From an uncultured Bacteroidia bacterium (GTDB lineage Bacteria > Bacteroidota > Bacteroidia > Bacteroidales > F082), in the NCBI GenBank assembly GCA_902774365.1, contig CACYHX010000018.1, forward strand, positions 1 through 45,994: a stretch of DNA of 45,994 nucleotides, in the 5' to 3' direction. Within the stretch, counting starts at the first letter, position 1. Each line of letters opens with the position of its first letter. Below, piece by piece: positions 25,667 through 39,107 of the stretch. Both the position numbers and the translations under genes were made by a program. Below the pieces are notes generated by a model, which was not told the origin of the DNA, searched no databases, and was given only the letters and a program-made list of their open reading frames with translations.

Positions 25667-25690
25667 GAATTGAGAATTGAGAATTAAGGG
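25667..25690. repeat. 7-bp tandem array GAATTGA (about 3.4 units)
   Basis: GAATTGA, GAATTGA, GAATTAA and GGG in exact 7-nt register, 3 nt ahead of the tatD start codon. The same heptamer, read on the other strand (TTCTCAA), makes the array at 36422. Confidence 0.7.
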
Positions 25691-25711
25691 ATTGGAGTTT
25701 GTGGAGTGAGA

Positions 25712-26905
25712 TTAATAAAGAAAATTGTCGTAAGGATAGCGAATGGCGTGCATATCACGGATTTCTTTATAGAGCAAATCACGAAATTCCTGATAGTTGT
25801 CGCGGTTTTTGGCGGAGATGAAGATACAGTTCTCATTCATCTTGGCCATCCAGGTCTTCTTCAGCTCGTCGTAGGACACGTTGCGCTTGGTGGGCGGCGT
25901 CAAGTCGTCGGGGTCCTTCTCCTCCCAAGTGTAGGCGTCGGTCTTGTTGAAGACGACGATGGTCTTCTTGTCGGCACAGCCTAATTCGGCCAAGGTCTGG
26001 TTCACCACCTCCATCTGCGCCTCGAAGTCGGGATGCGAGATGTCGACCACATGCAGCAGGATGTCCGACTCGCGCACCTCGTCTAAGGTCGACTTGAACG
26101 ACTCCACGAGATGATGCGGTAACTTGCGGATGAAACCGACAGTATCAGACAACAAGAAAGGCAGGTTTTCCACCACCACCTTACGCACCGTAGTGTCCAA
26201 TGTGGCGAAGAGTTTGTTTTCGGTATAGACCTCTGACTTGCTCAGCAGGTTCATGATGGTCGACTTGCCCACATTGGTATAGCCGACAAGAGCCACACGC
26301 ACCAGCTTGCCACGGTTCTTGCGCTGCACGGTCTTCTGCTTGTCGATATCCTTGAGCTTCTCTTTAAGCAAGGCGATGCGTTCCAGAATCAAACGGCGGT
26401 CGGTCTCGATTTGGGTCTCACCAGGGCCGCGCATACCGATACCACCTCTTTGTCTCTCCAAGTGGGTCCACATACGCGTCAAACGAGGCAGAAGGTATTG
26501 GTATTGTGCCAGTTCCACCTGTGCCTTGGCATGTGCCGTATGCGCATTGGAGGCAAAGATGTCGAGGATGAGGCTGGTACGGTCGAGGACACGGCATTCC
26601 AAAGCCTGTTCCATGTTGCGGGCTTGTGTGGCGCTCAACTCGTCGTCGATGACGGCAATCTCTATGTTCTCCGCCTTGATGTACTGGTGAATCTCTTCCA
26701 GCTTGCCCGAGCCGAGGTAGGTCACGCTACTCGGATGGTCCATGGCCTGCACGAAACGCGCCACGGGCACGCCGCCTGCCGTCTCAAGCAGGAACGCCAG
26801 CTCGTCGAGGTATTCCTCAGTACGTTCGCGGCCTTGCTGTTTGCTGGCCACGGCGATGAGGACCGCCCTTTCGGGAATTTTTTCGTATGTGATGAAGTCA
26901 CCCAT
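25712..26905 (-). CDS. hflX: ribosome-associated GTPase HflX
   Basis: A 397-residue GTPase that splits stalled or heat-damaged ribosomes. The N-terminal HflX domain (ERAVLIAVASKQQG...SVTYLGSGKLEEI, DDELSATQARNME) is followed by a coiled-coil linker (RILLKEKLKDIDKQKTVQRK region) and the G domain: G1 GYTNVGKST, G3 DTVGFIRKLPHHLVESFKSTL, G4 NKTD, and G5 SAKN near the end. Members usually end with a C-terminal domain of about 50 residues, which is short here. An invariant 28-bp palindrome sits just upstream of its start codon. The gene runs toward tatD with a heptamer array between them. Confidence 0.96.
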   Translation of the reverse strand: MGDFITYEKIPERAVLIAVASKQQGRERTEEYLDELAFLLETAGGVPVARFVQAMDHPSSVTYLGSGKLEEIHQYIKAENIEIAVIDDELSATQARNMEQALECRVLDRTSLILDIFASNAHTAHAKAQVELAQYQYLLPRLTRMWTHLERQRGGIGMRGPGETQIETDRRLILERIALLKEKLKDIDKQKTVQRKNRGKLVRVALVGYTNVGKSTIMNLLSKSEVYTENKLFATLDTTVRKVVVENLPFLLSDTVGFIRKLPHHLVESFKSTLDEVRESDILLHVVDISHPDFEAQMEVVNQTLAELGCADKKTIVVFNKTDAYTWEEKDPDDLTPPTKRNVSYDELKKTWMAKMNENCIFISAKNRDNYQEFRDLLYKEIRDMHAIRYPYDNFLY

Positions 26906-26917
26906 TGTGATGTGTTG

Positions 26918-26945
26918 GTAGAGACGCGATTAATCGCGTCTCTAC
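26918..26945. repeat. perfect 28-bp palindrome between trpS and hflX
   Basis: GTAGAGACG, core CGATTAATCG, CGTCTCTAC: perfectly self-complementary over all 28 bases. It lies 12 nt before the hflX start and 5 nt after the trpS stop, so it could also act on the trpS 3' end. Confidence 0.9.
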
Positions 26946-26950
26946 AAGCA

Positions 26951-27943
26951 TTAATATGTTCTGAATCCAATGATCCTCCTAACCTCATTCAAGGTCTTCG
27001 CTGCGCTCTCGCGGGCCTTCTCGGCGCCCATGCGGGCGATGCGGTCGAGGCGGGCCTCGTCACTCGAGAACTCCTTGATCCTTTCACGGATGGGAGCTAC
27101 AGCCTTCTCCAGGTCGTCGGCCAGCTGTTTCTTCATATCGCCATAGCGGATGGAGCAGTCGTTCCACTTCTCGTCGAAGTACTTCACCGTCTCGGGCTCG
27201 CTGACGATATTCATCATCGTGAAGAGGTTCTGAATCACTTCCGGCTTGGGGCTGTTGGGCTCGGTCGGGCCGCTGTCAGTGACGGCGCGCATCACCTTCT
27301 TACGCATGGTCTTCTCGTCCTCGAAGAGGTAGATGCAGTTGCCGTCGCTCTTGCCCATCTTGCCGCTGCCGTCGAGGCCCGGCACCTTGATGGCGTCGCC
27401 GCCGAAGTAGTAGTTTTGCGGCTCGGGGAAGAACTCCACCTTATAGATGTTGTTGAAACGGCGGGCGCACTTGCGGGCCATCTCCATGTTCTGCTCCTGG
27501 TCCTTGCCCACGGGCACCCATTTGGCGCGATGCTGCAGGATGTCGGCAGCCATCAGCGTGGGATAGGTGAACAAGCCTGCATTGACGTTGTCAGGCTGCT
27601 GGCGTGCCTTCTCCTTAAAGGTCGTCACGCGACCCAGTTCACCGATGTAGGCGTTCATGTTGAAGTAAAGATACAGCTCGATGGTCTCGGGCACATCGCT
27701 CTGGATGTAGATGGTGGCCTTTTCGGGGTCGATGCCGCAGGCGAGATATTCGGCCAAGATGGTGCGAGCCGAACGCTGTATATTCTCCGGCGTGGGGTGC
27801 GTGGTCAGCGAGTGCCAGTCGGCGATGAAGAAATAGCAGTTGTAGTCTTCCTGCATCTTCACGAAGCTACGCACGGCGCCGTAGTAGTTGCCGAGGTGAA
27901 GGTTTCCGGTGGGGCGGATGCCGCTCAATACGATGTCTTTCAT
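26951..27943 (-). CDS. trpS: tryptophanyl-tRNA synthetase
   Basis: A 330-residue class I synthetase that charges tRNA-Trp. The HIGH-type motif is in PTGNLHLGNYYGA near residue 15. The second signature is K-M-G-K-S-D-G-N, where glycine replaces the more usual serine of KMSKS, a substitution known in this family. Length fits a bacterial TrpS. Its promoter box TATCTTTG lies at 27987-27994 and the stretch between that box and the start codon consists almost wholly of a tandem heptamer array. A 28-bp palindrome follows the stop. Trp supply is of note since tryptophanase is encoded in the same window, at 37-38 kb. Confidence 0.97.
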   Translation of the reverse strand: MKDIVLSGIRPTGNLHLGNYYGAVRSFVKMQEDYNCYFFIADWHSLTTHPTPENIQRSARTILAEYLACGIDPEKATIYIQSDVPETIELYLYFNMNAYIGELGRVTTFKEKARQQPDNVNAGLFTYPTLMAADILQHRAKWVPVGKDQEQNMEMARKCARRFNNIYKVEFFPEPQNYYFGGDAIKVPGLDGSGKMGKSDGNCIYLFEDEKTMRKKVMRAVTDSGPTEPNSPKPEVIQNLFTMMNIVSEPETVKYFDEKWNDCSIRYGDMKKQLADDLEKAVAPIRERIKEFSSDEARLDRIARMGAEKARESAAKTLNEVRRIIGFRTY

Positions 27944-27978
27944 CAGTTGTCAGTTATCAGTTGTTCAGTTGTCAGTTA
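27943..27978. repeat. TCAGTTG/TCAGTTA heptamer array in the trpS leader
   Basis: Five units: TCAGTTG, TCAGTTA, TCAGTTG, (extra T) TCAGTTG, TCAGTTA. The array starts at the ATG and reaches almost to the -7 box, so it makes up the untranslated leader. Confidence 0.8.
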
Positions 27979-27986
27979 TTTGGGTG

Positions 27987-27994
27987 CAAAGATA
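27987..27994 (-). promoter_or_regulatory. -7 box for trpS
   Basis: The minus strand reads TATCTTTG followed by CACCC. A TTTG on the minus strand (plus 28018-28021) lies 23 nt upstream, close to the expected -33 spacing. Confidence 0.6.
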
Positions 27995-28068
27995 GGAATT
28001 TATGGGGATTTGCTTCGCAAAGAAATCTTACAAAAATCAATTCAAAATTTTAGAAACCCTATTTGAAA

Positions 28069-28101
28069 GATTTTTGATGGATTTTTGAATGATTTTTGAA
28101 C
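28069..28101. repeat. three 11-bp tandem repeats GATTTTTGANN
   Basis: GATTTTTGATG, GATTTTTGAAT, GATTTTTGAAC in exact 11-nt register, with a weaker fourth copy just before. It lies in the 240-nt gap between trpS and rng, beside a small TTTGC-TTC-GCAAA hairpin. Confidence 0.6.
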
Positions 28102-28127
28102 TATTTCTGTCCTTTAGGGCATACCAT

Positions 28128-28157
28128 AAAAAAAGGCTCGTCGTGTGGACGAGCCTT
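28128..28157 (-). terminator. rng terminator
   Basis: GGCTCGTC (28135-28142) pairs with GACGAGCC (28148-28155) over a 5-nt loop; on the minus strand it is followed by seven T. It lies 27 nt past the rng stop. Confidence 0.85.
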
Positions 28158-28183
28158 CTGAGGTTTTTTGGCAGTGACTTCCT

Positions 28184-29773
28184 TTAGAGCTTGATGTCGT
28201 CGCCGTTGGCGTTAAGGAAGTTGTACTGCAGCATGTGGAACTCGGGCATTGCTTGCACCTTGAATTTCTTACCGTATTTCTTCATCCATTTGCGGCGGAT
28301 CGAGAACAGCCCGTCGATGCAGAGATAGGAATAGATGAAGGGATGCACCTGCAAGGTGAGGTGGTTCTCGTTTTGGTCGACGAGCAGGTACTTGAGATGG
28401 TCTTCGATTTCGTCGATGTAGAGGATGGCGGGACGGATTTTGCCTTCGCCGTCGCAGACGGGGCATTTCTCCTGCACCTGCACTTCCGTCTCGGGACGCA
28501 CGCGTTGGCGTGTGATCTGGATGAGACCAAACTTCGTAGGAGGAAGGATGGTGTGCTTGGCGCGGTCGTGCGCCATGGCTTCCACCAAGGCTTCGTACAA
28601 TTCCTGGCGGTGTTTGGCTTCGTGCAAGTCAATGAAGTCCACGATGATGATGCCGCCCATGTCGCGCAGGCGCAGTTGGCGTGCAATCTCCTTGGCAGCA
28701 TCGAGGTTGACTTGGAGGGCGTTGAGTTCCGGTGAGTTTTCCTTGTTGACACGATGGCCGCTGTTCACGTCGATGACATGCATGGCCTCGGTGTGCTCAA
28801 TGACAAGGTAGACACCGTTTTTGATGGTGACAATCTTACCGAAAAAGCCTTTGATCTGCTTGGCAACGTTGTAATAGTCAAAGATGGGTTCTTTGCCTTT
28901 GTAGAGTTGCACAATCTCAGCCTTTTGCGGTGCGATGGTACGGATGTAGTTTTGGATCTCTTCATAGAGTTTCTCGTCGTTCACGTGGATGTTGTTGAAC
29001 GACTCGTTCAGCAAATCGCGCAGCATGACGCTGGTCTGGTCCATCTCGCTGACCATCCTTCCAAAGGTGGTCATCTTCTTCATCTCGATGATGCATTGTT
29101 CCCATTTGGCGATGAGCGACCTGAGGTCGGCGTCGAGTTCGGCCACCTTTTTGCCTTCGGCGACGGTGCGGATGATGACGCCGTAGTTGTTGGGTTTGAT
29201 GCTTTGGATCAGACGACGCAGGCGGTTACGTTCTTCGCTGCTGCGGATTTTCTGCGATACCGAAATGCGGTTGGAGAAGGGGACGAGGACGAGATAACGT
29301 CCTGCAAACGAGACCTCTGCCGTGATTCTCGGGCCTTTGGTGTGGATCGGCTCCTTGGCAATTTGCACCGGAATCAGGTCACCGACGTTGAGCACATCGG
29401 CGACTTTGCCGTTTTTCGGCAGGTCGGGGTCAAGTTTGAACTTGTCCATGGGGAGATCCTCTCCTGCCACGACCCGCTTCTTGTACTTGAGCATGGAATG
29501 GGCCTGCAAGCCCAGGTCGAGATAGTGCAGGAAGGCCTCCTTGGGATAGCCGACGTCGACGAATGCCGCGTTGAGGCCCGGCAGCAGTTTCTTCACCCTG
29601 CCTAAGTAGACGTCTCCGACCGCAAACTGGTTGTTGGTCTTCTCTCTGTGAAGTTCGACAAGCGTGTTGTCCTCCAATAGGGCAATGTCAACCTCCGAAG
29701 CGTGCGAATTGATGACCAAGTCGCGCGTCACCGTCTTCACTTCCACAACCTCTTGTTGTTGTTCTTCAGACAT
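28184..29773 (-). CDS. rng: ribonuclease E/G family endoribonuclease
   Basis: A 529-residue RNase G-type protein. An S1-like RNA-binding part (NQFAVGDVYLGRVKKLLPGLNAAFVDVG, about 44-72) leads into the catalytic domain. The metal-binding aspartates are in HVIDVNSGH and IIIVDFIDL. The zinc-link motif is C437-P-V-C440, used by the family to form dimers. It lacks the long C-terminal scaffold of E. coli RNase E, so it is of the short RNase G form. The gene order HU / COX24-like / rng, facing mutY-ssb-gldE-gldD, is a known Bacteroidota arrangement. It is preceded by a hairpin at 29808-29855 and closed by a strong terminator. Confidence 0.95.
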   Translation of the reverse strand: MSEEQQQEVVEVKTVTRDLVINSHASEVDIALLEDNTLVELHREKTNNQFAVGDVYLGRVKKLLPGLNAAFVDVGYPKEAFLHYLDLGLQAHSMLKYKKRVVAGEDLPMDKFKLDPDLPKNGKVADVLNVGDLIPVQIAKEPIHTKGPRITAEVSFAGRYLVLVPFSNRISVSQKIRSSEERNRLRRLIQSIKPNNYGVIIRTVAEGKKVAELDADLRSLIAKWEQCIIEMKKMTTFGRMVSEMDQTSVMLRDLLNESFNNIHVNDEKLYEEIQNYIRTIAPQKAEIVQLYKGKEPIFDYYNVAKQIKGFFGKIVTIKNGVYLVIEHTEAMHVIDVNSGHRVNKENSPELNALQVNLDAAKEIARQLRLRDMGGIIIVDFIDLHEAKHRQELYEALVEAMAHDRAKHTILPPTKFGLIQITRQRVRPETEVQVQEKCPVCDGEGKIRPAILYIDEIEDHLKYLLVDQNENHLTLQVHPFIYSYLCIDGLFSIRRKWMKKYGKKFKVQAMPEFHMLQYNFLNANGDDIKL

Positions 29774-29807
29774 AGTGTTTTTACTTTGGGGTTAACGATG
29801 GTTTGAT

Positions 29808-29855
29808 AAAATAAAACAAAACACAACATTGGTATGAGCCAATGCTGTGTTGTCG
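29808..29855 (-). terminator. hairpin between the COX24-like gene and rng
   Basis: Read on the minus strand, AACACAGCATTGG and CCAATGTTGTGTT form a 13-bp stem with one wobble pair and a 6-nt loop, followed by a T-rich stretch (TTTGTTTTATTTTA). It could end the HU/COX24-like transcript before rng. Confidence 0.75.
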
Positions 29856-29878
29856 TCGTGTTTAGGCTCAAGAAGAGC

Positions 29879-29968
29879 TTATTTCTTCTTGTGTCTGTCC
29901 TTTCTCAAGCGTTTTTTGCGCTTGTGAGTCGACATTTTGTGTCTTTTGTGTTTCTTACCGTTTGGCAT
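29879..29968 (-). CDS. 29-residue basic COX24/bS22-like ribosomal protein
   Basis: A very small gene of 30 codons. The product begins MPNGKKHKRHK and continues with a highly basic run ending R-K-D-R-H-K-K-K; 20 of 29 residues are K, R or H. This matches the AURKAIP1/COX24-type proteins seen in Bacteroidota, related in pattern to the mycobacterial ribosomal protein bS22 and mitochondrial mS38. It lies 26 nt after the HU stop and has no promoter of its own, so it is co-transcribed. The function as a ribosomal component is inferred from family resemblance; the coding status is well supported by its conserved place in the HU-rng order and clean ATG and stop. Confidence 0.82.
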   Translation of the reverse strand: MPNGKKHKRHKMSTHKRKKRLRKDRHKKK

Positions 29969-29994
29969 AATATTGCAAATTTTAGGTGTTTTTT

Positions 29995-30267
29995 TTACTT
30001 AACAGCGTTCATGAAGGTCTTTGCAGGCTTGAAGGCCGGAATCTTGTGAGCCGGAATGGTGATGGCGATATTCTTACCGATGTTACGGCCAGTCTTTTCA
30101 GCTCTCGTCTTGATGATGAAGCTACCGAAGCCTCTCAGATACACGTTTTCACCCTTAGCCATGGAGTTCTTCACGACTTCCATGAAATTCTCAACAACAT
30201 TCTGGACAGCACCTTTTTCAATGCCGGTCTTGCTTGCGATTTCAGCAACGATTTCTGCTTTAGTCAT
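29995..30267 (-). CDS. hup: HU-family DNA-binding protein
   Basis: A 90-residue histone-like protein that bends and compacts DNA. It starts MTKAEIVAEIASKTGIEK and has the family's DNA arm pattern: LRGFGSFIIKTRAEKTGRNIGKN, then I-T-I-P-A-H-K-I-P-A-F-K-P-A-K-T-F. The G-R-N-x-G-K-N segment and the intercalating proline (I-P-A) are both present. It is first in the HU / COX24-like / rng run and divergent from mutY over a 152-nt gap. Confidence 0.97.
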   Translation of the reverse strand: MTKAEIVAEIASKTGIEKGAVQNVVENFMEVVKNSMAKGENVYLRGFGSFIIKTRAEKTGRNIGKNIAITIPAHKIPAFKPAKTFMNAVK

Positions 30268-30316
30268 TTTTTCTCTTATTTTATGGTTAATTGTTATGTT
30301 TGTTGTAAATTTGCGG

Positions 30317-30324
30317 CAAAGGTA
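30317..30324 (-). promoter_or_regulatory. -7 box for HU
   Basis: The minus strand reads TACCTTTG followed by CCGC, 50 nt ahead of the ATG. Confidence 0.5.
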
Positions 30325-30419
30325 CGAACATTTTCAATACGCCGACCCCATTAATGTAAATTTTTTCTTCTAATGAGTTATAAATAAAGAATTTCGCCTT
30401 CGCAAAAGTCCATTTTTTG

Positions 30420-31469
30420 ATGAATTTCATACAAGACACCCTTATTAATTGGTACGAGGAAAACCACCGCGACCTGCCTTGGCGACACCGGCCCACGCCC
30501 TATCAGGTATGGCTGTCGGAGGTCATCCTGCAACAAACGCGCGTCAACCAAGGTATGGACTACTACCTCCGTTTCATCGAGCGCTGGCCAACGGTCGCCG
30601 ACCTCGCCCAGGCCTCCGAGGAAGAGGTGCTGAAGCAATGGCAAGGCCTCGGCTACTACTCGCGCGCACGCAACCTGCACAAATGCGCAAGACAAGTCGT
30701 GGAACAACACGGAGGGCAGTTCCCCGCTGATTTCGAACAACTTAAAAAACTCCAAGGCATAGGTGACTACACCGCCGCCGCCATAGCCTCCATCGCCTTC
30801 GACCTGCCCCATGCCGTGGTCGACGGCAACGTGTACCGCGTCTTGTCACGCCTATACGACATTGACACACCTATTAATATTAATGAAGGGCAAAAACTCT
30901 TTGCCGACCTCGCCGACGAGCTCCTCAACCGCGAGCAGCCTGGCCTCCACAACCAAGCCCTTATGGAGTTCGGTGCCCTGCACTGCACGCCCAAGAACCC
31001 CAACTGCCTGCTTTGCCCCTTGCAAGCGCAATGCCTCGCCTTCGCCCATCAGACTGTCATGCAACGCCCCGTGAAACTGGCCAAAGTAAAGGTCTCGACA
31101 CGGTATTTCAACTATCTGGTTATCAGATTTGAAGACAGCATATATCTCCACAAGCGCAGCGGCAACGACATCTGGCGCAACCTCTACGACTTCCCCTGCG
31201 TCGAAAGCGAAACGTCCTTGTCAGTTGACGAAGTCATCGCCACTGCACAGTTCAAGGAACTCATTGAAGATAAGCCTTTTACCATCGTCAAAGTCTCGCC
31301 TGTCTTCACGCACAAACTGACACATCGCACCCTGCTTGCCCAGTTCATCGAACTAAAACTTGAAAAAAAATTGTTGCAGATTGAAACAAAAGATTTATTT
31401 TTGACGCCCGAAACGGATTTGGGCAGTTTTCCCATCCCACGCTTAATCGACTTATACTTAACCACTTAA
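30420..31469 (+). CDS. mutY: A/G-specific adenine glycosylase
   Basis: A 349-residue base-excision enzyme that removes adenine mispaired with 8-oxoguanine. The start is the ATG at 30420 (a TTG three bases earlier is less likely). The catalytic glutamate is in WLSEVILQQTRV, the helix-hairpin-helix is LQGIGDYTAAAIASIAF, and the catalytic aspartate is in AVVDGNVYRVLSR. The 4Fe-4S cluster ligands are C189, C196, C199 and C205 (C-x6-C-x2-C-x5-C). The C-terminal NUDIX-like domain that recognises 8-oxoG follows. It lies 13 nt ahead of ssb, so both are probably co-transcribed. Confidence 0.96.
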   Translation: MNFIQDTLINWYEENHRDLPWRHRPTPYQVWLSEVILQQTRVNQGMDYYLRFIERWPTVADLAQASEEEVLKQWQGLGYYSRARNLHKCARQVVEQHGGQFPADFEQLKKLQGIGDYTAAAIASIAFDLPHAVVDGNVYRVLSRLYDIDTPININEGQKLFADLADELLNREQPGLHNQALMEFGALHCTPKNPNCLLCPLQAQCLAFAHQTVMQRPVKLAKVKVSTRYFNYLVIRFEDSIYLHKRSGNDIWRNLYDFPCVESETSLSVDEVIATAQFKELIEDKPFTIVKVSPVFTHKLTHRTLLAQFIELKLEKKLLQIETKDLFLTPETDLGSFPIPRLIDLYLTT

Positions 31470-31482
31470 AAAACGCTACACT

Positions 31483-31941: not shown

Positions 31942-31947
31942 AATGGA

Positions 31948-32054
31948 GTTTTTATCAGCATAGATACGCTCACTTTCTGCCTATGTCATACCGACCGAGG
32001 AACGAGGGAGCGTATCTATGGGCAGAAAATTCGGTATGACATGCTGATAAAAAC
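31948..32054. repeat. 107-bp element with a 14-bp terminal inverted repeat and crossed inner complements
   Basis: The ends GTTTTTATCAGCAT (31948-31961) and ATGCTGATAAAAAC (32041-32054) are perfect inverted copies. Inside are three more perfect complementary pairs: 13 bp (31959-31971 with 32008-32020), 8 bp (31974-31981 with 32021-32028) and 12 bp (31983-31994 with 32031-32042). The inner pairs occur in the order B-C-D then B'-C'-D', so they cross and cannot all form at once. It begins 7 nt after the ssb stop and ends before the gldE promoter. Confidence 0.85.
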
Positions 32055-32085
32055 AAAGCCATTGCCATCAAATCAAAATATTTTG

Positions 32086-32093: not shown

Positions 32094-32119
32094 CAGCCTG
32101 AATTATAAATCATAAGATT

Positions 32120-33475
32120 TTGGAAACACCCGACCCTGACCCTCTCATAGGACTGATCACCGTACTTCTATCCGGACCTGATCCGCATAGCTTTTTCACT
32201 GGATTTAACGTCAACGCCATCATAGGATTGGTCGTATTATGTCTGCTCCTCATCGCCTCGGCCCTGATATCGAGCAGCGAGACGGCGTTTTTCTCCCTGC
32301 AACCTGCCGACATCGACGACCTGGAGTCGCGCAACGACACAAAGAGCAAACTCGTGCTCGACTTGCGTGAGAAGCCCAAGACCCTGTTGGCTACCATCTT
32401 GATAGGCAACAACTTTGTCAACGTGACCATCACCCTGCTGTCGACCTACATCATGGCGCAGCTCTTCGACATGCAGCACCACCCCTGGGCGGCCTTCGTG
32501 CTCGAAGTGGTCATCGTCACCTCGTTGATATTGATAGCCGGCGAAATCACGCCTAAGATCTATGCCAACAAACGCCCCGTCAAGGTGGCCCGCTTCATGG
32601 CACGGCCGCTGCGATTCCTCATCGGGTTATTCAAGCCGCTGAGCAAGCTGCTGGTCAACTCCACCTCGTTCATGGACAAACACCTGGAGAAGAAAAAAGG
32701 CGAGATCTCGATGGAAGACCTCTCCACCGCCGTGGAGATCGCCACCGAGGAGTCGACGCCACCCGAGGAGAAACAGATGCTCATGGGCATCGCCTCGTTC
32801 AGCGAGAAGGAAGTCAGCAACGTGATGATACCACGTGTCGACATCATCGGCGTGGAGAAAGGCATGGAGTTCACCGAGATGCTGGCCGTCGTCATCAAAA
32901 GCGGTTTTTCCAGAATCCCTGTCTATGATGAGACGTTGGACAAGGTGGAAGGCATCCTCTACGTGAAAGACCTCCTTCCCTACCTCGACGCCCAGTCATA
33001 CGAATGGCAGAAGCTCATCCGCCCGGCCTTCTTCGTGCCCGAAAACCGTAAGATCAACGACCTTTTCCAGGACTTCCGCGAGAAGAAGATCCATATCGCC
33101 ATCGTCGTCGACGAATACGGCGGCACCTCAGGCCTCATCACCATGGAAGACGTGATTGAGGAAATCGTCGGCGAAATCAACGACGAGTTCGACGAAGCCA
33201 CCGTGGTGGAGCACTACAAGAAACTCGACGACGGCAGCTACCTCTTCAAGGCACAGACCAGCATCGTCGACTTCTGCAAGGTGTTCGACGTCGACGAGGA
33301 CTACTTCGAGCCCATGCAGGGCGAAGCCGACACCCTCGCCGGCCTCATCCTCGAAATCGAAGGACGCATCCCTGAGATCGGGTTCACGTTCACCTTCGAG
33401 AAGTTCCATTTCGAAATCACCGATGCCGACGCCAAACGCATCAAAGAAGTAAAAGTAGTGTTTGATGAAGAATAA
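32120..33475 (+). CDS. gldE: gliding-associated protein GldE (CorC/HlyC-type CBS protein)
   Basis: A 451-residue membrane protein read from a TTG start. No in-frame ATG occurs near the start (the next methionine codon is well inside the membrane domain), and M-E-T-P-D-P-D-P-L fits GldE N-termini. Four hydrophobic segments make a DUF21/CNNM-type membrane domain (IIGLVVLCLLLIASALISSSETAFF, with the S-S-S-E-T-A-F-F mark; ... VVIVTSLILIAGEITPKIYANKRP). Two CBS domains follow (from about residue 225: VMIPRVDIIGVEKG..., IAIVVDEYGGTSGLITMEDVIEEIVGEI) and a CorC/HlyC C-terminal domain. GldE works with GldD in gliding/type IX secretion in F. johnsoniae; its transport activity, if any, is unproven. Its stop overlaps an ATG that would read through a repeat into gldD. 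Confidence 0.9.
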   Translation: METPDPDPLIGLITVLLSGPDPHSFFTGFNVNAIIGLVVLCLLLIASALISSSETAFFSLQPADIDDLESRNDTKSKLVLDLREKPKTLLATILIGNNFVNVTITLLSTYIMAQLFDMQHHPWAAFVLEVVIVTSLILIAGEITPKIYANKRPVKVARFMARPLRFLIGLFKPLSKLLVNSTSFMDKHLEKKKGEISMEDLSTAVEIATEESTPPEEKQMLMGIASFSEKEVSNVMIPRVDIIGVEKGMEFTEMLAVVIKSGFSRIPVYDETLDKVEGILYVKDLLPYLDAQSYEWQKLIRPAFFVPENRKINDLFQDFREKKIHIAIVVDEYGGTSGLITMEDVIEEIVGEINDEFDEATVVEHYKKLDDGSYLFKAQTSIVDFCKVFDVDEDYFEPMQGEADTLAGLILEIEGRIPEIGFTFTFEKFHFEITDADAKRIKEVKVVFDEE

Positions 33476-33477
33476 TG

Positions 33478-33520
33478 CTTCGACAAGCTCAGCAACCTAA
33501 GGTCCCTGAGCCTGTCGAAG
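33478..33520. repeat. imperfect palindrome CTTCGACAAGCTCAG... between gldE and gldD
   Basis: CTTCGACAAGCTCAGCAACC and GGTCCCTGAGCCTGTCGAAG form inverted arms (18 of 20 positions match or nearly so) around three bases. It is open in the frame of gldD and begins 3 nt after the gldE stop. Its arms resemble a dispersed repeat type common in bacterial intergenic regions. Confidence 0.8.
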
Positions 33521-33540
33521 GGCCGACAAATAGAATAAAC

Positions 33541-34131
33541 ATGAGAATCAGCAAGTTCATAATTCCATTGACAGTCATGGTTTTAGCCTTCGTCGCCTTC
33601 TCGTGCGACCGCGACACCAACTACCTGCCCAAGCCTCGCGGCTATTTCCGCATCGACTTGCCCGAGAAAGCCTACACCAAGGTCGACACCATCGAACGCT
33701 ACAGCTTCGAGTGCCCCGACTACGCCTTCGTCACCCCCGACCCCTACTCGCCCGACGAGAAGAACTGGGTCAACATAGAGATGCCGTCATTCAAAGGCTC
33801 CATCCACCTGACACACAAGCCCGTGAATGGCAATTTAGGTGAATACCTGGAAGACGTCCACACCATGGTCGTCAAGCACCTGCAGAAGGCCAACGGCATG
33901 CGTGACAGCCTGATTGTCAACGACGAGCACAAGGTCTACGGCATGTTCATCGAGATGGATGGCAAGGGCGTGGCCACGCCGATGCAGTTCTACCTCACCG
34001 ACAGCACGAAAAACTTCGTCCGCGGCGCCCTCTACTTCAACTTCAAGCCCGACAACGACTCGATGCAGCCCGTCATCAACTTCATCCGCAAGGACATCGA
34101 CCACCTGATCGAGACCTTTGAGTGGAAATAA
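33541..34131 (+). CDS. gldD: gliding motility lipoprotein GldD
   Basis: A 196-residue lipoprotein. The start used is MRISKFIIPLTVMVL at 33541, giving a clean lipoprotein signal with lipobox C22 (V-A-F-S-C). Mature segments match GldD: YLPKPRGYFRIDLPEKAYTKVD, FECPDYAFVTPD, NWVNIEMPSFKGSIHLTHKPV, HMVVKHLQKANGMRDS and FVRGALYFNFKPDNDSMQPVINFIRKDIDHLIETFEW. Family role: needed for gliding and type IX secretion with GldE. The frame is open further upstream to an ATG at 33475 overlapping the gldE stop, which would add 22 residues translated from the palindromic repeat; the signal peptide argues against that start. Confidence 0.92.
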   Translation: MRISKFIIPLTVMVLAFVAFSCDRDTNYLPKPRGYFRIDLPEKAYTKVDTIERYSFECPDYAFVTPDPYSPDEKNWVNIEMPSFKGSIHLTHKPVNGNLGEYLEDVHTMVVKHLQKANGMRDSLIVNDEHKVYGMFIEMDGKGVATPMQFYLTDSTKNFVRGALYFNFKPDNDSMQPVINFIRKDIDHLIETFEWK

Positions 34132-34175
34132 TTTGAGGTTTTTTCCCCGTCTTTCACCAAAAAACACTATTTTCG

Positions 34176-34199
34176 CGGCGCGAAAAATCTTTTGCGCCG
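34176..34199. promoter_or_regulatory. hairpin in the corA leader region
   Basis: CGGCGCGAAA and TTTTGCGCCG pair as a 10-bp stem (one wobble) around AATC, 43 nt ahead of corA and 44 nt after gldD. It could end gldD transcription or act in the corA leader. Confidence 0.45.
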
Positions 34200-34242
34200 A
34201 TGTAAACTGAGTATTCACTTTTAAAGAAAGGGGGAAAGGCCT

Positions 34243-35160
34243 ATGATTAACAGCCTGAAAATCGGGGATTTGACATGGCGTCATCTCAACAACCCAACGG
34301 AAGAAGACTTTGAATTCCTGAAAGACCGATTTCATTTCCACCCTTTGGACATCGAAGACTGTAAGTCGGTCAACCAACGCCCCAAAATCGACATCTACGA
34401 CGATTATTACTTCCTCATCCTGCATTTCCCGAACTTCGACCGTCAGAACAAGTTCGTGAAAATCAAGGAGGTGAAGATTTTCTGGGGCAAGGACTACATC
34501 ATCTCCATCGAGAAAAACCCCTGGGGCGTGTCGCAACTCTTCGAGGAATACGAGGAACGCATCCAGAACAACGAGGAGATGAACATCCGCAACTCCGACA
34601 TCCTCCTCTACCGCATCCTCGAGAAACTGATGACCGAGTCGGTGTATCTGCTGCGCAAGGTCGGCCTCGACGTCGAACTCATCAACCGCGAGCTGCTGCA
34701 GGAGAAACAGGTGAAGATCATCGAACGCATCAGCGTGACGCGCAAAAACCTCATCCTCATCAACACCATCTTCAAGCCACAGCTGAGGCTCTTCCACCTC
34801 TTCGAGACGGGTAAGGTGACCGGCTTCACCGACGACGTGGAATACATGGAAGACTACTGGGGCAACATCCTCGACTACCTGCAGAAGGTATGGGATATGA
34901 CCGAGGACTACGAGGAACTGATCGAGGGCCTCTCCATGACCTTCGACTCGATGCAGACCAACAAGACCAACGAGACGATGAAGATCCTGACCCTCGTGTC
35001 GACCATCATCCTGCCTCTGACCTTCATCACCGGCCTCTATGGCATGAACGTCGCCCTACCCTTGCAAGAATACAAATGGGCCTTCTGGGTCATCATGGGA
35101 TTCATGGCATTGGTCGCCATGGGGTTCTATATCTATTTCAGGCATAAGAAAATGATGTAG
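34243..35160 (+). CDS. corA: CorA family magnesium/cobalt transporter
   Basis: A 305-residue divalent-cation channel. A long cytoplasmic domain (about 1-240) with the C-terminal coiled helix (YEELIEGLSMTFDSMQTNKTNETMKILTLVSTI) leads to two membrane helices. The signature G267-M-N269 lies at the end of the first (TGLYGMNV) and marks the pore entrance. The ATG at 34243 has a strong purine-rich stretch upstream (AAGAAAGGGGGAAAGG), longer than usual in this genome. It ends 1 nt before a large heptamer array that pairs with an inverted array near the convergent gene. Confidence 0.95.
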   Translation: MINSLKIGDLTWRHLNNPTEEDFEFLKDRFHFHPLDIEDCKSVNQRPKIDIYDDYYFLILHFPNFDRQNKFVKIKEVKIFWGKDYIISIEKNPWGVSQLFEEYEERIQNNEEMNIRNSDILLYRILEKLMTESVYLLRKVGLDVELINRELLQEKQVKIIERISVTRKNLILINTIFKPQLRLFHLFETGKVTGFTDDVEYMEDYWGNILDYLQKVWDMTEDYEELIEGLSMTFDSMQTNKTNETMKILTLVSTIILPLTFITGLYGMNVALPLQEYKWAFWVIMGFMALVAMGFYIYFRHKKMM

Positions 35161-35234
35161 TGTAGAGTGTAGAGTTTAGAGTGTAGAGTTTAGAGATAGT
35201 TGAAGGTGTAGAGTGTAGAGTGTGGAGTGTGGAG
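35161..35234. repeat. TGTAGAG heptamer array after corA
   Basis: Nine heptamers of the form TGTAGAG, TTTAGAG or TGTGGAG, in two blocks (35161-35195 and 35207-35234) separated by 11 bases. Inverted relative to the array at 35285-35347. Confidence 0.8.
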
Positions 35235-35284
35235 TTTATTAAACTCATACAAAACCGCGACCGCCCCTCAATCCTAAAAACAGA

Positions 35285-35347
35285 AACTCTCCACTCTCAA
35301 CTAAAAAACTCTCCACTGCCCCTAAACTCTAAACACTCAACTCTAAA
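35285..35347. repeat. CTCTAAA heptamer array before the endonuclease stop
   Basis: Units such as CTCTAAA, CACTCAA and CCACTCT in a near-continuous 7-nt register. With the array at 35161-35234 it can fold into a long hairpin between convergent genes. Three of its units match the array at 39039-39094. Confidence 0.75.
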
Positions 35348-36406
35348 CTATTTTACAATAAGTTTCTCGTATTTAACAACAACGCCGTTGCGCAGCACCT
35401 TGACGATGTAGCACCCTTGTGCCATATCATCGGGCAGCGTCACGACGCAGTCGTCGCCGACATGCGTGTTGGCCTTGAGCACTGTGCGTCCGCACAAGTC
35501 GCAGAGCACCACGCCGTCGATGGCGTTGCCATACACATGCAGCGTCTGCCCGTGATCAACGGGGTTGGGGAAGACCGCCACCGACTCCATTGTTTCCTCT
35601 ACGGTATTCCATGTCGGGTCCCAGATCATGCGGGCATATTCCGGGTGGTCGATGAAGGGGTTGCGGTTGTGTTGATAGCTGGTATAAATGACGTTGTTGC
35701 GGTCGATTTCCTTTTGGCTGACGGGGTCCTGTTCGTTCCAGCGCATCAGCATCTGTATGGCCCACGGCTTGATTTCGCTCTTGGTGGTCATGTCGCTCGT
35801 GCTCCAGCTGGCGTCTTCGGTGTAGTAACGCACGCTCATATACATGAGAGCACGGGCGAAGTCGCCCTTATAGGCATCGATAGGCTCAAACACCGTCCCC
35901 GAGAAGCCCGAGGTCTTGCAGGTGCCCAGCTTCGAGCCGTTTCGCGAGGTCCAACTGGCTGAGCGCACCTCGCCAAAGGCATAGTTGGAGCGTTTGTTGT
36001 TAACGAAGCCGTCGGTGGGGAAAAGATGGTGCAAGTCCGATTTGGCCGTAGCGTCATTACCGAACCAACTCTGCGGCCACGAGTGTTCGCGGTTGTAGCA
36101 GTCGCCCTCACCGTCGTAGCTACCGCATTGGTCGGTGCCAAGTTGATAGGTATAGGGCGGCGTGCCACCCGGGATGTCGGAATACATGTCCCACACCACG
36201 CCGTTGCCCTTGTTGTCGGTGCTCCAAAAAGCGTTGGCAGTGGCTGAATACGAAATGACCGTATGCCCTTTGATGATATTGTGCAAGGCCGTCTTCAGCG
36301 CATTGCCACTCAAACCGTTGGCGGAGTTGTAATAATTGGAAGGCGCCTGCGCCATCACCGACAGCGCAAAGAACAAAGCAATTACGGCAGAAAACAACTT
36401 TTTCAT
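35348..36406 (-). CDS. secreted endonuclease I with T9SS sorting domain
   Basis: A 352-residue exported nuclease. The start is the ATG at 36406, just 3 nt inside a GTG. Signal peptide 1-20 (ends VMAQ). Residues about 60-250 are an endonuclease I (EndA/NucM) domain with the histidine-metal core: CYNREHSWPQSWFG, then HHLFPTDGFVNNKRSNYAFGEV. The last about 70 residues are a T9SS type A sorting domain: VAVFPNPVDHGQTLHVYG, GVVLCDLCGRTVLKA, GCYIVKVLRNGVVVKYEKLIVK. It should degrade DNA outside the cell and be exported by type IX secretion. A heptamer array (36422-36449) precedes its start. Confidence 0.94.
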   Translation of the reverse strand: MKKLFSAVIALFFALSVMAQAPSNYYNSANGLSGNALKTALHNIIKGHTVISYSATANAFWSTDNKGNGVVWDMYSDIPGGTPPYTYQLGTDQCGSYDGEGDCYNREHSWPQSWFGNDATAKSDLHHLFPTDGFVNNKRSNYAFGEVRSASWTSRNGSKLGTCKTSGFSGTVFEPIDAYKGDFARALMYMSVRYYTEDASWSTSDMTTKSEIKPWAIQMLMRWNEQDPVSQKEIDRNNVIYTSYQHNRNPFIDHPEYARMIWDPTWNTVEETMESVAVFPNPVDHGQTLHVYGNAIDGVVLCDLCGRTVLKANTHVGDDCVVTLPDDMAQGCYIVKVLRNGVVVKYEKLIVK

Positions 36407-36421
36407 CACCTCAATTTTTTA

Positions 36422-36449
36422 ATTCTCAATTCTCAATTCTCAATTGTCA
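36422..36449. repeat. ATTCTCA heptamer array upstream of the endonuclease gene
   Basis: ATTCTCA three times, then ATTGTCA, in exact 7-nt register, 16 nt before the endonuclease start and next to the MntP-like gene stop. The heptamer equals that at 25667 read on the other strand. Confidence 0.75.
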
Positions 36450-36452
36450 ATT

Positions 36453-37016
36453 CTACATTAAGTCTGTAAACAAATACAAAGCCGCAATGATCACCATGAA
36501 CACCGAGGCGGCGAACTCGACGAAGCTCACCTTCTTGATGATGCCCGGGGTGAAGTCGATGCGCACGGTGAAGAACGCCCACAAAAAGCCTGCCACGACC
36601 ACCGCAGGGAAAAACCAGAGGCCGAAGGGCACGAAAAACGTGCTCACCAAGGCATACAGGAACGTGTTGACGGCGGCGAGGATGGTCAGCAGGAAGATGT
36701 CCTTGTCGGAGCTGAGGGTGTACATCATCTTGCCTTTCAAGATGCGGATGGAGTCAACGAAGAGCTTCACCGCCACCACAAGCATCATGGCAAACACCAT
36801 ATACTCAGCGATATAGGTAAAGAGATGTGCCATCAGGCGGCTCAAGGTGAAGCCCAGCAAGGCCATGACGCCTTGGCTGAGGCCGAACATCACGGGGATC
36901 CACACCTTTTGCGAAGGCTTGTCGTCAGCCTTCACCAAGCCCACCGAGCGTGGCACCACGCTAGAGGTGAGGCAGAGGATGAAGAGGATGCCTAATATGA
37001 TTGCAGAGGTAGTCAT
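36453..37016 (-). CDS. MntP-like integral membrane protein, 187 aa
   Basis: A small inner-membrane protein with about six hydrophobic segments. The region FGLSQGVMALLGFTLSRLM near residues 47-66 recalls the F-G-L-(S/F)-Q-(A/G)-x-M-P-L-x-G part of manganese exporter MntP, and the arrangement of two three-helix halves is similar. However the first-helix aspartate of MntP (L-D-A-x-A-V-S) is absent; the segment reads LGILFILCLTSSVVPRSVGLV. It is best named MntP-like, with function unproven. Start by ATG at 37016; a 28-bp palindrome lies just upstream, followed by tnaA. Confidence 0.6.
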   Translation of the reverse strand: MTTSAIILGILFILCLTSSVVPRSVGLVKADDKPSQKVWIPVMFGLSQGVMALLGFTLSRLMAHLFTYIAEYMVFAMMLVVAVKLFVDSIRILKGKMMYTLSSDKDIFLLTILAAVNTFLYALVSTFFVPFGLWFFPAVVVAGFLWAFFTVRIDFTPGIIKKVSFVEFAASVFMVIIAALYLFTDLM

Positions 37017-37026
37017 TGAAATAAAA

Positions 37027-37054
37027 GTAGAGACGGTGCATGCACCGTCTCTAC
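37027..37054. repeat. perfect 28-bp palindrome between tnaA and the MntP-like gene
   Basis: GTAGAGACG, core GTGCATGCAC, CGTCTCTAC; perfectly self-complementary. Same arms as the copies at 1544 and 26918 but a different core. It lies 13 nt after the tnaA stop and 10 nt before the next start codon. Confidence 0.9.
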
Positions 37055-37067
37055 GTGATTGAATGGA

Positions 37068-38444
37068 TTATCCCAGTCTCTTGAACTGGCAGGTGAAGTG
37101 ACGCATCAGCTCGGCTTCCCAAGTGATTTCGAGGCCGCGCTTGATGCTGTCGCGACGGTCGTACACGTTCTTCAGGGCTGCGGCGATGACGTCCATGTGG
37201 TTGTTGGTGTAGACACGGCGCGGGATGCAGAGGCGTACGAAGTCGTTGCCGCCAAAGCGGTTCTGGCGCGTGACGGGGTCACGGTCGGCAAGGACGTAGC
37301 CGATCTCGCAGGCACGGATGCCAGCTTCGAGGTACAGCTCGCAAGTCAGCGTCTGGGCGGGGAACTCTTCCTTCGGGATGTTGGTCAGCACCTTGTCGGC
37401 GTCGACGAAGATGGCGTGGCCACCGGCGGGACGCTGGTAAGGGATGCCGTACTCGTCGAGTTTGGCGGCGAGGTAATGCACCTGTTTGATGCGGGTCTCG
37501 ACCATCTCGAACTCGATGTTCTCCTTCAGACCGACGGCCAGGGCGTCCATGTCGCGGCCGTTCATGCCGCCGTAGGTGAGGAAGCCCTCGAAGGGGATGC
37601 AGAACAGCTTGGCGCCTTCGTACCAGTCCTTCTTGTTGGTGGCGATGAAGCCGCCCATGTTGACGAGGCCGTCCTTCTTGGCGCTCATGGTCATGCTATC
37701 GGCATAGCTGAACATCTCGAGGCAGATCTCGCGCAAGGTCTTGTTCTCGTAGCCCTTCTCGCGGGTCTTGATGAAGTAGGCGTTCTCGATGAAACGGGCG
37801 CTGTCGATGTTGACCGGCACACCGTACTTGTGGCACAGCTCGCAGGTCTCGCGGATGTTCTGCATCGAGACGGGCTGACCGCCGACGGTGTTGTTGGTCA
37901 CGGTAAGGACCATGAACGGCACGTTGCCTTGGTTCTCTTTCAGCACCTTCTCCAGCTTCTCGAGGCTGACGTTGCCCTTGAACGGCACTTCGAGTTGGGT
38001 GTCGTAGGCCTCGGGCACGGTGACGTCGATGGCGAAGGCCTTACGGCTCTCGATGTGGCCCTTGGTGGTGTCGAAGTGGGCGTTGCCGGGGACGACCATG
38101 CCGGGCTTCACGAGGTAGGAGAACAGCACGTTCTCGGCGGCGCGGCCTTGGTGGGTGGGGATGACGTACTCGAAACCGGTGAGTTCGGTGATGGTGTCTT
38201 TCATGTGGTAGAACGAGCGGGCGCCGCCGTAGCTCTCGTCGCCTTGCATCATGGCGGCCCATTGACGGTCGCTCATGGCGCCGGTGCCGCTGTCGGTCAG
38301 CAGGTCGATGTAGACATAGTCGCTCTTCAGCATGAAGACGTTCTGGTGGGCTTCGTTGAGCCACTTTTCGCGTTGTTCGCGGGTGGATTTCTTGATAGGT
38401 TCAACCATCTTGATTTTCCACGCTTCTGCAAATGGTAATTCCAT
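37068..38444 (-). CDS. tnaA: tryptophanase (tryptophan indole-lyase)
   Basis: A 458-residue PLP enzyme that splits tryptophan to indole, pyruvate and ammonia. The PLP lysine is in MSAKKDGLVNMGG. The choice between tryptophanase and tyrosine phenol-lyase was made from residues: the segment AGIRACEIG has isoleucine where tyrosine phenol-lyase has its substrate-binding arginine (VRSMERG), FDTTKGH matches tryptophanase FFDTTQGH, and DSARF matches tryptophanase, not DATRC. So indole production is the better call. Length is typical (E. coli 471). Promoter box at 38685-38692 gives a leader of about 235 nt that holds a 20-codon frame and a heptamer array. Confidence 0.92.
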   Translation of the reverse strand: MELPFAEAWKIKMVEPIKKSTREQREKWLNEAHQNVFMLKSDYVYIDLLTDSGTGAMSDRQWAAMMQGDESYGGARSFYHMKDTITELTGFEYVIPTHQGRAAENVLFSYLVKPGMVVPGNAHFDTTKGHIESRKAFAIDVTVPEAYDTQLEVPFKGNVSLEKLEKVLKENQGNVPFMVLTVTNNTVGGQPVSMQNIRETCELCHKYGVPVNIDSARFIENAYFIKTREKGYENKTLREICLEMFSYADSMTMSAKKDGLVNMGGFIATNKKDWYEGAKLFCIPFEGFLTYGGMNGRDMDALAVGLKENIEFEMVETRIKQVHYLAAKLDEYGIPYQRPAGGHAIFVDADKVLTNIPKEEFPAQTLTCELYLEAGIRACEIGYVLADRDPVTRQNRFGGNDFVRLCIPRRVYTNNHMDVIAAALKNVYDRRDSIKRGLEITWEAELMRHFTCQFKRLG

Positions 38445-38553
38445 GGTAATTATGATTTAAAGATTCAAAAATTAAAAATTCAAAATTCAGGATGGTAATG
38501 CTTTGGTAACGTAGCAATTGTTGAAATGTTGTTTTTTGAAACAGGAATGACTC

Positions 38554-38592
38554 ATTCTGCATTCCGTATTCTGCATTCTGCATCCCTCATTC
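38554..38592. repeat. ATTCTGC heptamer array in the tnaA leader
   Basis: ATTCTGC, ATTCCGT, ATTCTGC, ATTCTGC, ATCCCTC, ATTC, in exact 7-nt register. It starts right where the 20-codon leader frame ends. Confidence 0.75.
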
Positions 38593-38653
38593 AAAAGAAC
38601 CTGTCGCGTTCCTTGATGTTAAGGTAAACCCTATTGCCAATGACGTGGGACAT
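38591..38653 (-). CDS. possible 20-codon leader peptide of tnaA
   Basis: The minus strand holds ATG, 19 further codons and TGA. The start is about 27 nt from the predicted transcription start and the stop 146 nt ahead of tnaA. The product begins MSHVIGNR and ends ERDRFF. Position and size resemble the E. coli tnaC leader, which controls tnaA through ribosome stalling, but this peptide has no tryptophan. It could instead be chance, or a remnant of a recombinase N-terminus (VYLNIKERDRF recalls YLTxxERDRFL of tyrosine recombinases). Coding status is unproven. Confidence 0.3.
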   Translation of the reverse strand: MSHVIGNRVYLNIKERDRFF

Positions 38654-38684
38654 ATTAATAATAAGGTGCTTTCAAAAAACGCTT

Positions 38685-38692
38685 CAAAGATA
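38685..38692 (-). promoter_or_regulatory. -7 box for tnaA
   Basis: The minus strand reads TATCTTTG. This is the only full consensus box on the minus strand between 38445 and 38760 that I found, so the tnaA leader would be about 235 nt. Confidence 0.5.
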
Positions 38693-38829
38693 CGGAATTT
38701 TTCGGAAATGCAAGGCTGCGAAGGCTTATTTTGTTTTCACGGCCCGAAAAAACCACATTTTCCCGTCAGGTCATTCGTTCCCTGGCAACACTAAACCTCT
38801 TGTCTCACAACCTCTCCATTATCAATTCC

Positions 38830-38854
38830 TCGGACGCAAGCGTTGCGTCCCTAC
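38830..38854. repeat. degenerate GTAGGGACG-type hairpin
   Basis: GGACGCAA-GCG-TTGCGTCC is a perfect 8-bp stem, followed by CTAC; the other side reads CCTC instead of GTAG. Read on the minus strand it is a variant of the GTAGAGACG palindromes. Confidence 0.65.
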
Positions 38855-38872
38855 TCCACACTACGCACCCCC

Positions 38873-38904
38873 AACTGAACATCTGAAAATCTGAAAATCT
38901 GACC
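38873..38904. repeat. 8-bp tandem array ATCTGAAA
   Basis: AACTGAAC, ATCTGAAA, ATCTGAAA, ATCTGACC in 8-nt register. Confidence 0.65.
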
Positions 38905-38906
38905 CT

Positions 38907-38978
38907 AGATTGCTTCGTCGTTCCTCCTCGCAAATCGAAGATTCGACGATGCGAAGCGAGTCAATGACGCGAAGCGTC
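38907..38978. repeat. palindrome-rich element AGATTGCTTCGTCG...
   Basis: AGATTGCTTCGTCG then TTCCTCCTCGCA, hairpins TCGAA-GA-TTCGA (38935-38946) and GACGC-GAA-GCGTC (38966-38978). The pieces AGATTGCTTCGTCG...CCTCGCA and AATGACG resemble a dispersed repeat common in bacteria, here interrupted by about 30 bases. Confidence 0.55.
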
Positions 38979-39022
38979 AACTGAACAACTGAACAACTGA
39001 ACAACTGAACAACTGAACAACT
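38978..39022. repeat. five perfect CAACTGAA octamers
   Basis: CAACTGAA five times without a mismatch, then CAACT. The reverse complement TTCAGTTG equals the unit of the trpS leader array plus one base. Confidence 0.9.
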
Positions 39023-39038
39023 CTCAACTAACCACTGC

Positions 39039-39094
39039 CTCTCAACTCTAAACTCTAAACACTAAACTCTGAACTTTCAATTGTCAATTTTCAA
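39039..39094. repeat. eight degenerate heptamers ending in AA
   Basis: CTCTCAA, CTCTAAA, CTCTAAA, CACTAAA, CTCTGAA, CTTTCAA, TTGTCAA, TTTTCAA: the register is exact while the heptamer drifts from unit to unit. It lies 38 nt ahead of the -7 box of the giant gene. Confidence 0.85.
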
Positions 39095-39107
39095 TTAAAA
39101 AAAGCCC

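Follow-up and report, generated by a model that had tools for sequence, protein, structure and literature searches.

Why do the gaps between genes in one stretch of bacterial DNA hold tandem repeats of seven nucleotides, with a different repeated word from gap to gap? The stretch (here called the window, 45,994 nt) is contig C18 of a draft genome of 2.8 Mb in 79 contigs, obtained from an uncultured Bacteroidia bacterium (GCA_902774365.1, CACYHX010000018.1). Its intergenic heptamer arrays are real and belong to a genome-wide class with a common period. They keep the period of seven regardless of the unit, match at about five positions where two arrays face each other as arms, lie at stop codons, are rare between divergent genes, and are gained, lost, or replaced in sister species. 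The inverted layout, with arrays as the arms of a hairpin, is a feature that the earlier note on this DNA did not contain. It is quite possible, with confidence somewhat short of even, that the arrays are anchored at gene ends, grow by slippage, and are kept where facing arms give a tolerated or useful 3′ hairpin.

Arrays were called with Tandem Repeats Finder. A first sample, comprising the window and 11 stretches (220 kb) with 34 kb of intergenic and 231 kb of coding DNA, has 14 intergenic period-7 arrays where shuffles give 0.2; its coding part has none. A larger sample of the same genome (1.07 Mb, of which 930 kb is coding) contains 52 intergenic period-7 arrays against 0.7 in shuffles, and three in coding DNA. 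Seven is the commonest intergenic repeat period in this larger sample, where the other periods include 8 (23 arrays, 0.6 in shuffles), 11 (9 arrays, 0.4), and 22 (11 arrays, 0.3). Among 510 gaps of 15–450 bp in the genome, 44 carry an array of period 7, 14, or 21, and 18 carry one of period 8. The autocorrelation peak at lag 7 that the earlier note put forward as a check is present in gaps of up to 300 bp, where lag 8 (z 13.1) and lag 7 (z 11.3) are the highest among lags 4–30. It does not stand out in the unfiltered first sample, in which lag 7 (z 5.4) is lower than lags 3, 4, 8, and 9. Since lag 8 is higher than lag 7 within gaps and other lags are higher in unfiltered DNA, seven is not the sole preferred period.

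The repeated word differs by locus, as had been noticed in the window, and 58 consensus units occur among 123 distinct arrays. A heptamer unit comprises about five constant and about two free positions. The variable phases within arrays are clumped (143 versus 154 ± 3.8), and are adjacent in 25 of 49 cases, with 16.3 expected. None of the 58 consensus units contains GGG or CCC, and GGG occurs in single arrays elsewhere, namely TTAGGGG in L248. The form YTNNNAA, proposed for most units on one strand, is seen on the best strand at 25667 (2/2), 36421 (4/4), and 39034 (7/8), but does not extend to 27944 (2/4), 35161 (at most 2/10), 35284 (at most 2/9), or 38553 (0/5).

Inspection of whole gaps reveals facing pairs such as TCAGCNN...NNGCTGA, TTAGCNN...NNGCTAA, and AGTTTGA...TCAAACT. 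Within the same gap, an inverted partner (p ≤ 0.01) accompanies 69, and a direct partner 23, of the 121 arrays with a period of 7, 14, or 21. The inverted partner is present for 57 of 98 arrays of period 7 alone; in the genome of the window alone, 20 of 44 arrays have an inverted and 12 a direct partner. Only 3 of 33 octamer arrays are paired in this way. A stricter count covers 1150 gaps from six groups, with partly overlapping genomes and one shuffle per group. Facing period-7 pairs appear in 37 of these gaps and are absent from the shuffles, and any other period from 5 to 12 is found in 0–4 gaps per group.

Mismatches between arms concentrate in two phases (0.84 versus 0.68 ± 0.03), which are adjacent in 16 of 29 cases, with one third expected. 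The sample of the window's genome contains 14 arms with at least three T[CT]AGC cores, and together they make up seven facing pairs. The free positions of partner arms in these seven pairs are no closer than those of strangers (0.26 versus 0.25 alike), and a recent origin of either arm as a copy of its partner is thereby rejected. As the cores match between arms and the free positions do not, selection on pairing would fit better than recent copying. Paired stretches fold strongly as RNA (median z −6.3, below −3 in 28 of 35), largely because of the pairing itself.

The pairs occupy particular positions between genes. Within the window's group, 30 gaps with pairs comprise 26 co-directional, 4 convergent, and no divergent gaps, where 4.7 divergent ones are expected (134 of 847 gaps are divergent). 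Measured over 31 co-directional gaps, the median distance from the outer edge of the pair is 2 nt to the stop codon and 32 nt to the start codon; it is at most 10 nt in 25 gaps on the stop side and in 9 on the start side. When each array is counted on its own, a stop lies within 10 nt for 20 out of 45, and a start for 4 out of 45. A purine-rich strand pointing away from genes is rejected as a general rule; it is found in 26 of 28 single arrays of the window's group (one more is neutral), but in other Bacteroidales, where paired arrays are counted too, in 15 of 31. In facing pairs, the 5′ arm is purine-richer in only 21 of 35.

Within the window, the arrays adjoin unrelated genes of housekeeping type. 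Pfam assigns these genes to TatD, RNase E/G, CorA, endonuclease I, and beta-eliminating lyase; an HflX-type GTPase is named from its domains, and a class I W/Y tRNA synthetase is taken as TrpS. The product of 36453–37016 has no Pfam match, and an Rfam scan of the window gives zero families at the gathering score. A TrpS search in named genomes leads to Bacteroidales metagenome-assembled genomes (MAGs), many of them from rumen or hindgut, including Candidatus Limimorpha equi and bacterium F082, now named Candidatus Alcium sp. F082. The arrays of the window are given below, with the strand where one is assigned.

25667–25685: GAATTGA array, located in a gap of 48 bp that separates tatD (minus strand, start codon ending at 25663) from hflX (minus strand, stop at 25712).
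27942–27979, minus strand: mixed 7/8-nt array of TAACTGA and CAACTGA units, which runs into the trpS start codon.
28062–28106: period-11 array sharing the gap with the trpS array, one 11-bp unit longer than in the relative L113.
35161–35235: left arm of TGTAGAG, TTTAGAG, and GTGGAGT units, beginning at the stop codon of the CorA-like gene.
35284–35345: right arm of facing ACTCTCC and CTCTAAA units, 2 nt short of the stop codon of the endonuclease I gene; pairs with the 35161 arm.
36421–36454: AATTCTC array that takes up the whole gap from the endonuclease I gene (minus strand) to the gene at 36453–37016 (minus strand) and touches the stop codon of the latter.
38467–38489: A/T-rich heptamer run with an inverted partner inside a long gap (equally good in 0 of 200 shuffles).
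38553–38592: CATTCTG array, for which a significant partner was not found in the gap.
38875–38902: octamer array CTGAAAAT.
38978–39022: octamer array CAACTGAA, 5.6 copies.
39034–39096: heptamers drifting from CTCTAAA through CTTTCAA to TTTTCAA, with a weak inverted partner (p 0.005).

Tandem Repeats Finder recovers each heptamer and octamer array named in the earlier note. The heptamer calls are 25667–25685, 27943–27977, 35159–35235, 35322–35349, 36421–36454, 38553–38583, 39039–39075, and 39077–39096; the 38553 array is also called as period 21, extending to 38592. The octamer calls are 38875–38902 and 38978–39022. The description of the arrays as intergenic with a constant 7-nt spacing is right for the most part. 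They lie between genes, except that 27943 runs into a start codon, 35161 begins at a stop codon, and 36421 touches one; the period is seven at most sites, but 27943 mixes 7- and 8-nt steps. The convergent gap 35161–35347 is a facing pair, with an RNA fold of −57.9 on the plus strand (−36.2 ± 3.7 in shuffles) and −59.4 on the minus strand (−44.7 ± 4.2). By eye, an array at L055 17939–17989 resembles the drifting array at 39034–39096.

The arrays differ between relatives, in line with the earlier note, and the corresponding gaps in sister species are empty or hold other heptamers. The relatives compared are species representatives only. Of 25 relatives, 13 have 1–3 nt between hflX and tatD, seven have a heptamer array, and five have something else; the arrays belong to four unit kinds, GAATTGA/GAATTAA, AGTTTAG, AAGTGGA, and AATTTAG. 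The trpS and hflX genes overlap in 4 of 23 relatives; in others, the space between them holds a palindrome, a single array, or a facing pair, with heptamers that differ from one relative to another, among which are GAATGCT-like units (L119, L124, L135), GGAATNC (L120), and TAAGCNN (L133). No array is present in the three relatives with an orthologue of the 35161 gap (5–42 nt), nor in the three with an orthologue of the 36421 gap (2–11 nt). One further gap has a facing AATTGAG pair in the genome of the window and a facing GGCTTCT pair in G002. For eight array gaps of this genome with orthologues, an array is present in 10 rows and absent in 30, some rows being one genome twice. Six other gaps have an array in a relative and none in the genome of the window.

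Other features accompany these gaps. At the 3′ end of hflX, the relatives with an array mostly have CTC TAT TAA, and those with a spacer of 1–3 nt mostly have TTG TAT TGA. The array-like word seems to extend into synonymous codons. The hflX–tatD gap of L113, a relative with 93% identity, measures about 830 bp, versus the 48-bp array gap of the window. A palindrome resembling repetitive extragenic palindromes (REP), GTAGAGACG...CGTCTCTAC, occurs in the window at 26906–26950 and 37017–37067, in gaps of L113, L118, and L127, and in the trpS upstream regions of several of L137–L144. In the trpS–hflX gap, it occupies the spot of the heptamer pairs in other species.

Octamer arrays are a second class, mostly directly before start codons, with 16 of 26 lying within 10 nt of one. 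A TAnnTTTG box, the Bacteroidetes −7 promoter consensus, is present within 60 nt upstream of 7 of 17 octamer arrays near starts, and in 268 of 1684 random intergenic 60-mers. The trpS array of the window lies between such a box, identified by consensus only, and the ATG, in the presumed mRNA leader. Two TAACTGA units, not adjacent, enclose CAACTGA units, and the last unit is at the start codon. The trpS leaders of relatives have the same order of box, array, and start codon, and since the array is 3′ of the promoter-like box, it would be part of the leader and not of the promoter. Several relatives have trpS leaders of the AACTGA type, and others have short leaders without arrays. In L113, the closest relative compared, the trpS array is the same and one 11-bp unit at 28062 is lacking.

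The explanation by slippage at gene ends would account for these features as follows. Replication slippage on short seeds at the ends of genes would lead to array growth. Where facing arms are transcribed, they would form hairpins in the 3′ untranslated region or between cistrons, and such a hairpin may be retained since it is harmless there or protects the mRNA end. Core pairing would matter, and no specific word would. Octamers and some heptamers before start codons may lengthen the mRNA leader, as a separate use of a like growth. Ordinary intrinsic terminators are rejected as the rule, as just 3 of 31 pairs have five consecutive T after the 3′ arm and just 4 of 37 have a terminator-like hairpin in the spacer. 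With terminator features so scarce, the hairpin is more likely to be protective, or simply tolerated, than to act as a terminator. The same scarcity makes the hairpin explanation slightly weaker and an absence of function more credible.

Several further results weigh against the hairpin explanation. No partner is found for 52 of 121 arrays. Many orthologous gaps measure 1–3 nt or are gene overlaps, and a hairpin is dispensable there. Among more distant MAGs, outside the window's group, one of seven facing pairs is divergent, and G022 has one facing pair between divergent genes. Facing pairs were not found in the heptamer-rich G288 and G133. At the free positions, partner arms and strangers are about equally alike. 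Two-copy 7-nt duplications outside arrays are not in excess in the genome of the window (11 versus 12.7 in shuffles), which argues against a slippage bias for seven, and a general 7-nt duplication bias is rejected on this count. The corresponding values are 6 versus 2.7 in close relatives and 9 versus 8.7 in distant ones; two-copy 8-mers in the genome of the window number 13 versus 2.7.

The arrays could conceivably be functionless microsatellites, made by slippage, unequal exchange, or gene conversion and located where they do least harm, a tentative possibility. This would suit the free variation of array presence and unit among relatives, the 58 consensus units in 123 distinct arrays, the unrelated housekeeping-type neighbours in the window, and the scarce terminator features. 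Drift alone, however, does not predict a facing partner for 69 of 121 arrays, or core positions that are alike within and between arms while neighbouring positions vary; the absence of a general excess of 7-nt two-copy duplications also speaks against it. It is improbable that the facing arms are the ends of a mobile element, similar to REP or to miniature inverted-repeat transposable elements (MITEs) and moved by a transposase such as Y1/RAYT (REP-associated tyrosine transposase). Gaps of relatives without an array, dispersed palindromes that adjoin arrays, and one mosaic at two loci would agree with movement, but the units are not the same between loci. Y1/RAYT was rejected as the mover, as the occurrence of Y1_Tnp does not follow that of arrays. 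Arrays are found in G017 without a Y1 match, and G019 and G024 have Y1 matches and no period-7 array in 100 kb each, although an array of period 14 and three with a period of 21 are present in G019.

Promoter tuning through changes in unit number, or a seat for a DNA-binding protein with 7-bp contacts, was the function suggested in the earlier note, and it is very improbable. The arrays are close to genes and differ between species, and the excess of TAnnTTTG boxes upstream of octamers near starts points the same way. Against it, facing pairs are sited at stop codons and occur in none of the 134 divergent gaps of the window's group, the trpS array is downstream of its box, and 58 units exceed what one binding protein could serve. 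The arrays are probably not promoter switches. A cassette of stops in three frames, in which a heptamer bearing a stop codon closes every frame because 7 is prime to 3, is hardly credible. Single heptamer arrays close three sense frames in 30 of 59 cases (23.9 ± 2.9 when phases are permuted) and octamers in 14 of 26 (8.3 ± 2.2), but partnered arrays do so in only 14 of 45 (10.6 ± 2.3), and units such as CTTCTGT are free of stops on both strands; with values weakly above the permuted controls, the cassette was rejected. A leader function, in which arrays on the start side might bind ribosomal protein S1 or cold-shock proteins, is somewhat unlikely and is compatible with the other readings. It would fit the octamers within 10 nt of start codons and the AACTGA-type trpS leaders of several relatives, and the available text of PMC4679880 proposes the same role for TAACTGA repeats. 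The stop-side arrays and facing pairs are left unexplained by it, and in other relatives the trpS leader is short and array-free.

The facing pairs resemble several known systems in part. REP and bacterial interspersed mosaic elements (BIME) are intergenic hairpins after stop codons with a constant palindromic sequence. The hairpins after stops are alike in REP/BIME with RAYT and in the present arrays, but a constant palindrome and tracking with Y1 are not found here, where the word is free and the period constant. The short tandemly repeated repetitive (STRR) sequences of filamentous cyanobacteria, with several tandem heptamers per genome, can be likened to the present class, although they are from a different phylum.

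The closest layout is described in the available text of Rehm et al. 2015 (PMC4692102), which deals with G-rich heptamers, GGGAATC and GGGGA(C/T)T, of Xanthomonas and Nostoc, reads them through G-quadruplexes, and mentions heptamers of Calothrix. Two Xanthomonas genomes have 186 and 183 of these repeats, with 70 and 75 facing cases, and the repeats are near the upstream gene and rare between divergent genes. The two systems share the period of seven, the intergenic location, fixed and free unit positions, facing pairs, siting at the upstream gene, few divergent cases, and variability among related species. In contrast to the one G-rich unit of that study, as far as its available text goes, dozens of units coexist here and replace one another at the same gap, and the G-tract units capable of forming G-quadruplexes are not matched among the 58 consensus units.

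TAACTGA heptamers are described by MacGregor 2015 (PMC4679880, available text) in marine Beggiatoaceae, Cyanobacteria, and five Bacteroidetes, the last with few sets; in one Beggiatoaceae genome, most are directly before start codons. In the trpS leader, TAACTGA and CAACTGA units are directed towards the start codon, an arrangement that resembles the sets interrupted by related heptamers in that study. Related heptamers are seldom repeated in its main genome, according to the same text, whereas here the AACTGA type is one kind of many, and facing pairs occur at stops. In view of these two heptamer systems, the remark in the earlier note that no named element behaves in this way does not stand. 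The BrickBuilt MITE of Porphyromonas gingivalis (PMC4596501, available text) is likewise from Bacteroidales, intergenic, and built of tandem repeats with inverted ends. However, its 23-nt unit, with small inverted ends outside the tandem units and reported promoter activity, represents a layout that is not found here. Among the papers listed by literature searches of incomplete coverage, none describes facing heptamer pairs from Bacteroidales. The layout matches that of Xanthomonas and the trpS leader resembles the TAACTGA repeats, while the many unrelated units without G-tracts in one genome set the present case apart from both.

Heptamers are over-represented in bacteria, with no accepted reason given in the available text of PMC4692102. 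Here dozens of heptamers without GGG have period, pairing, and siting in common, so that G-quadruplexes are excluded as a general explanation. Heptamers that lack G-tracts and have a common layout point instead to structure or to the copying machinery, and facing arrays with a recurrent layout and a varying word sharpen the open puzzle of favoured seven-base repeats. A sequence-blind process shared by unrelated bacteria might both write and preserve arrays of 7-nt periodicity at gene ends and arrange them in facing pairs. It would keep the period, the five-plus-two layout, and the pairing while the word is free and swapped in sister species at one and the same site; so broad a process is distinctly unlikely. 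The swapping of units at one gap in sister species represents a natural series for whether the hairpin, the word, or neither is selected.

The spread of the arrays is uneven. Of 12 genomes sampled from the window's genus, 9 contain period-7 arrays, and the remaining three were sampled at 7–60 kb only. More distant Bacteroidales MAGs have 28 such arrays in 62 kb of intergenic DNA, and four other families have zero in 100 kb each. Six genomes chosen by heptamer pattern all contain period-7 arrays, and four of them have facing pairs (in 1–2 gaps each), whereas the other two have none. The pattern TCAGCNN ×4 is found in 13 of 295 genomes of the order, and CTCTAAA ×3 in 2 of 296 genomes of the phylum, and either pattern follows the distribution of a single unit. 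As a reversed control, CGACTNN ×4 has up to 35 matches on one strand in G063, G064, G086, G205, G214, and others, which suggests other heptad families in other Bacteroidales.

Dispersed elements are also found in the genome of the window. Period-11 arrays (GATTTTTGAAA-like), seemingly the arms of an inverted dispersed element, occur at 28020–28110 of the window and at L060 2771–2925, L062 14312–14508, L069 7149–7347, and L072 10107–10245. An inverted element of about 90 bp, GTCATTGCGGG...CCCGCAATCTCC...CGCCATGAC, is dispersed over many gaps (L042, L046, L057, L060, L069, L070, L072). One mosaic, comprising a GAATTGA-type array, a GTAGGGCTGTCACA-like palindrome, and another short-unit array, is present in opposite orientations at L046 14739–14876 and L062 6269–6383.

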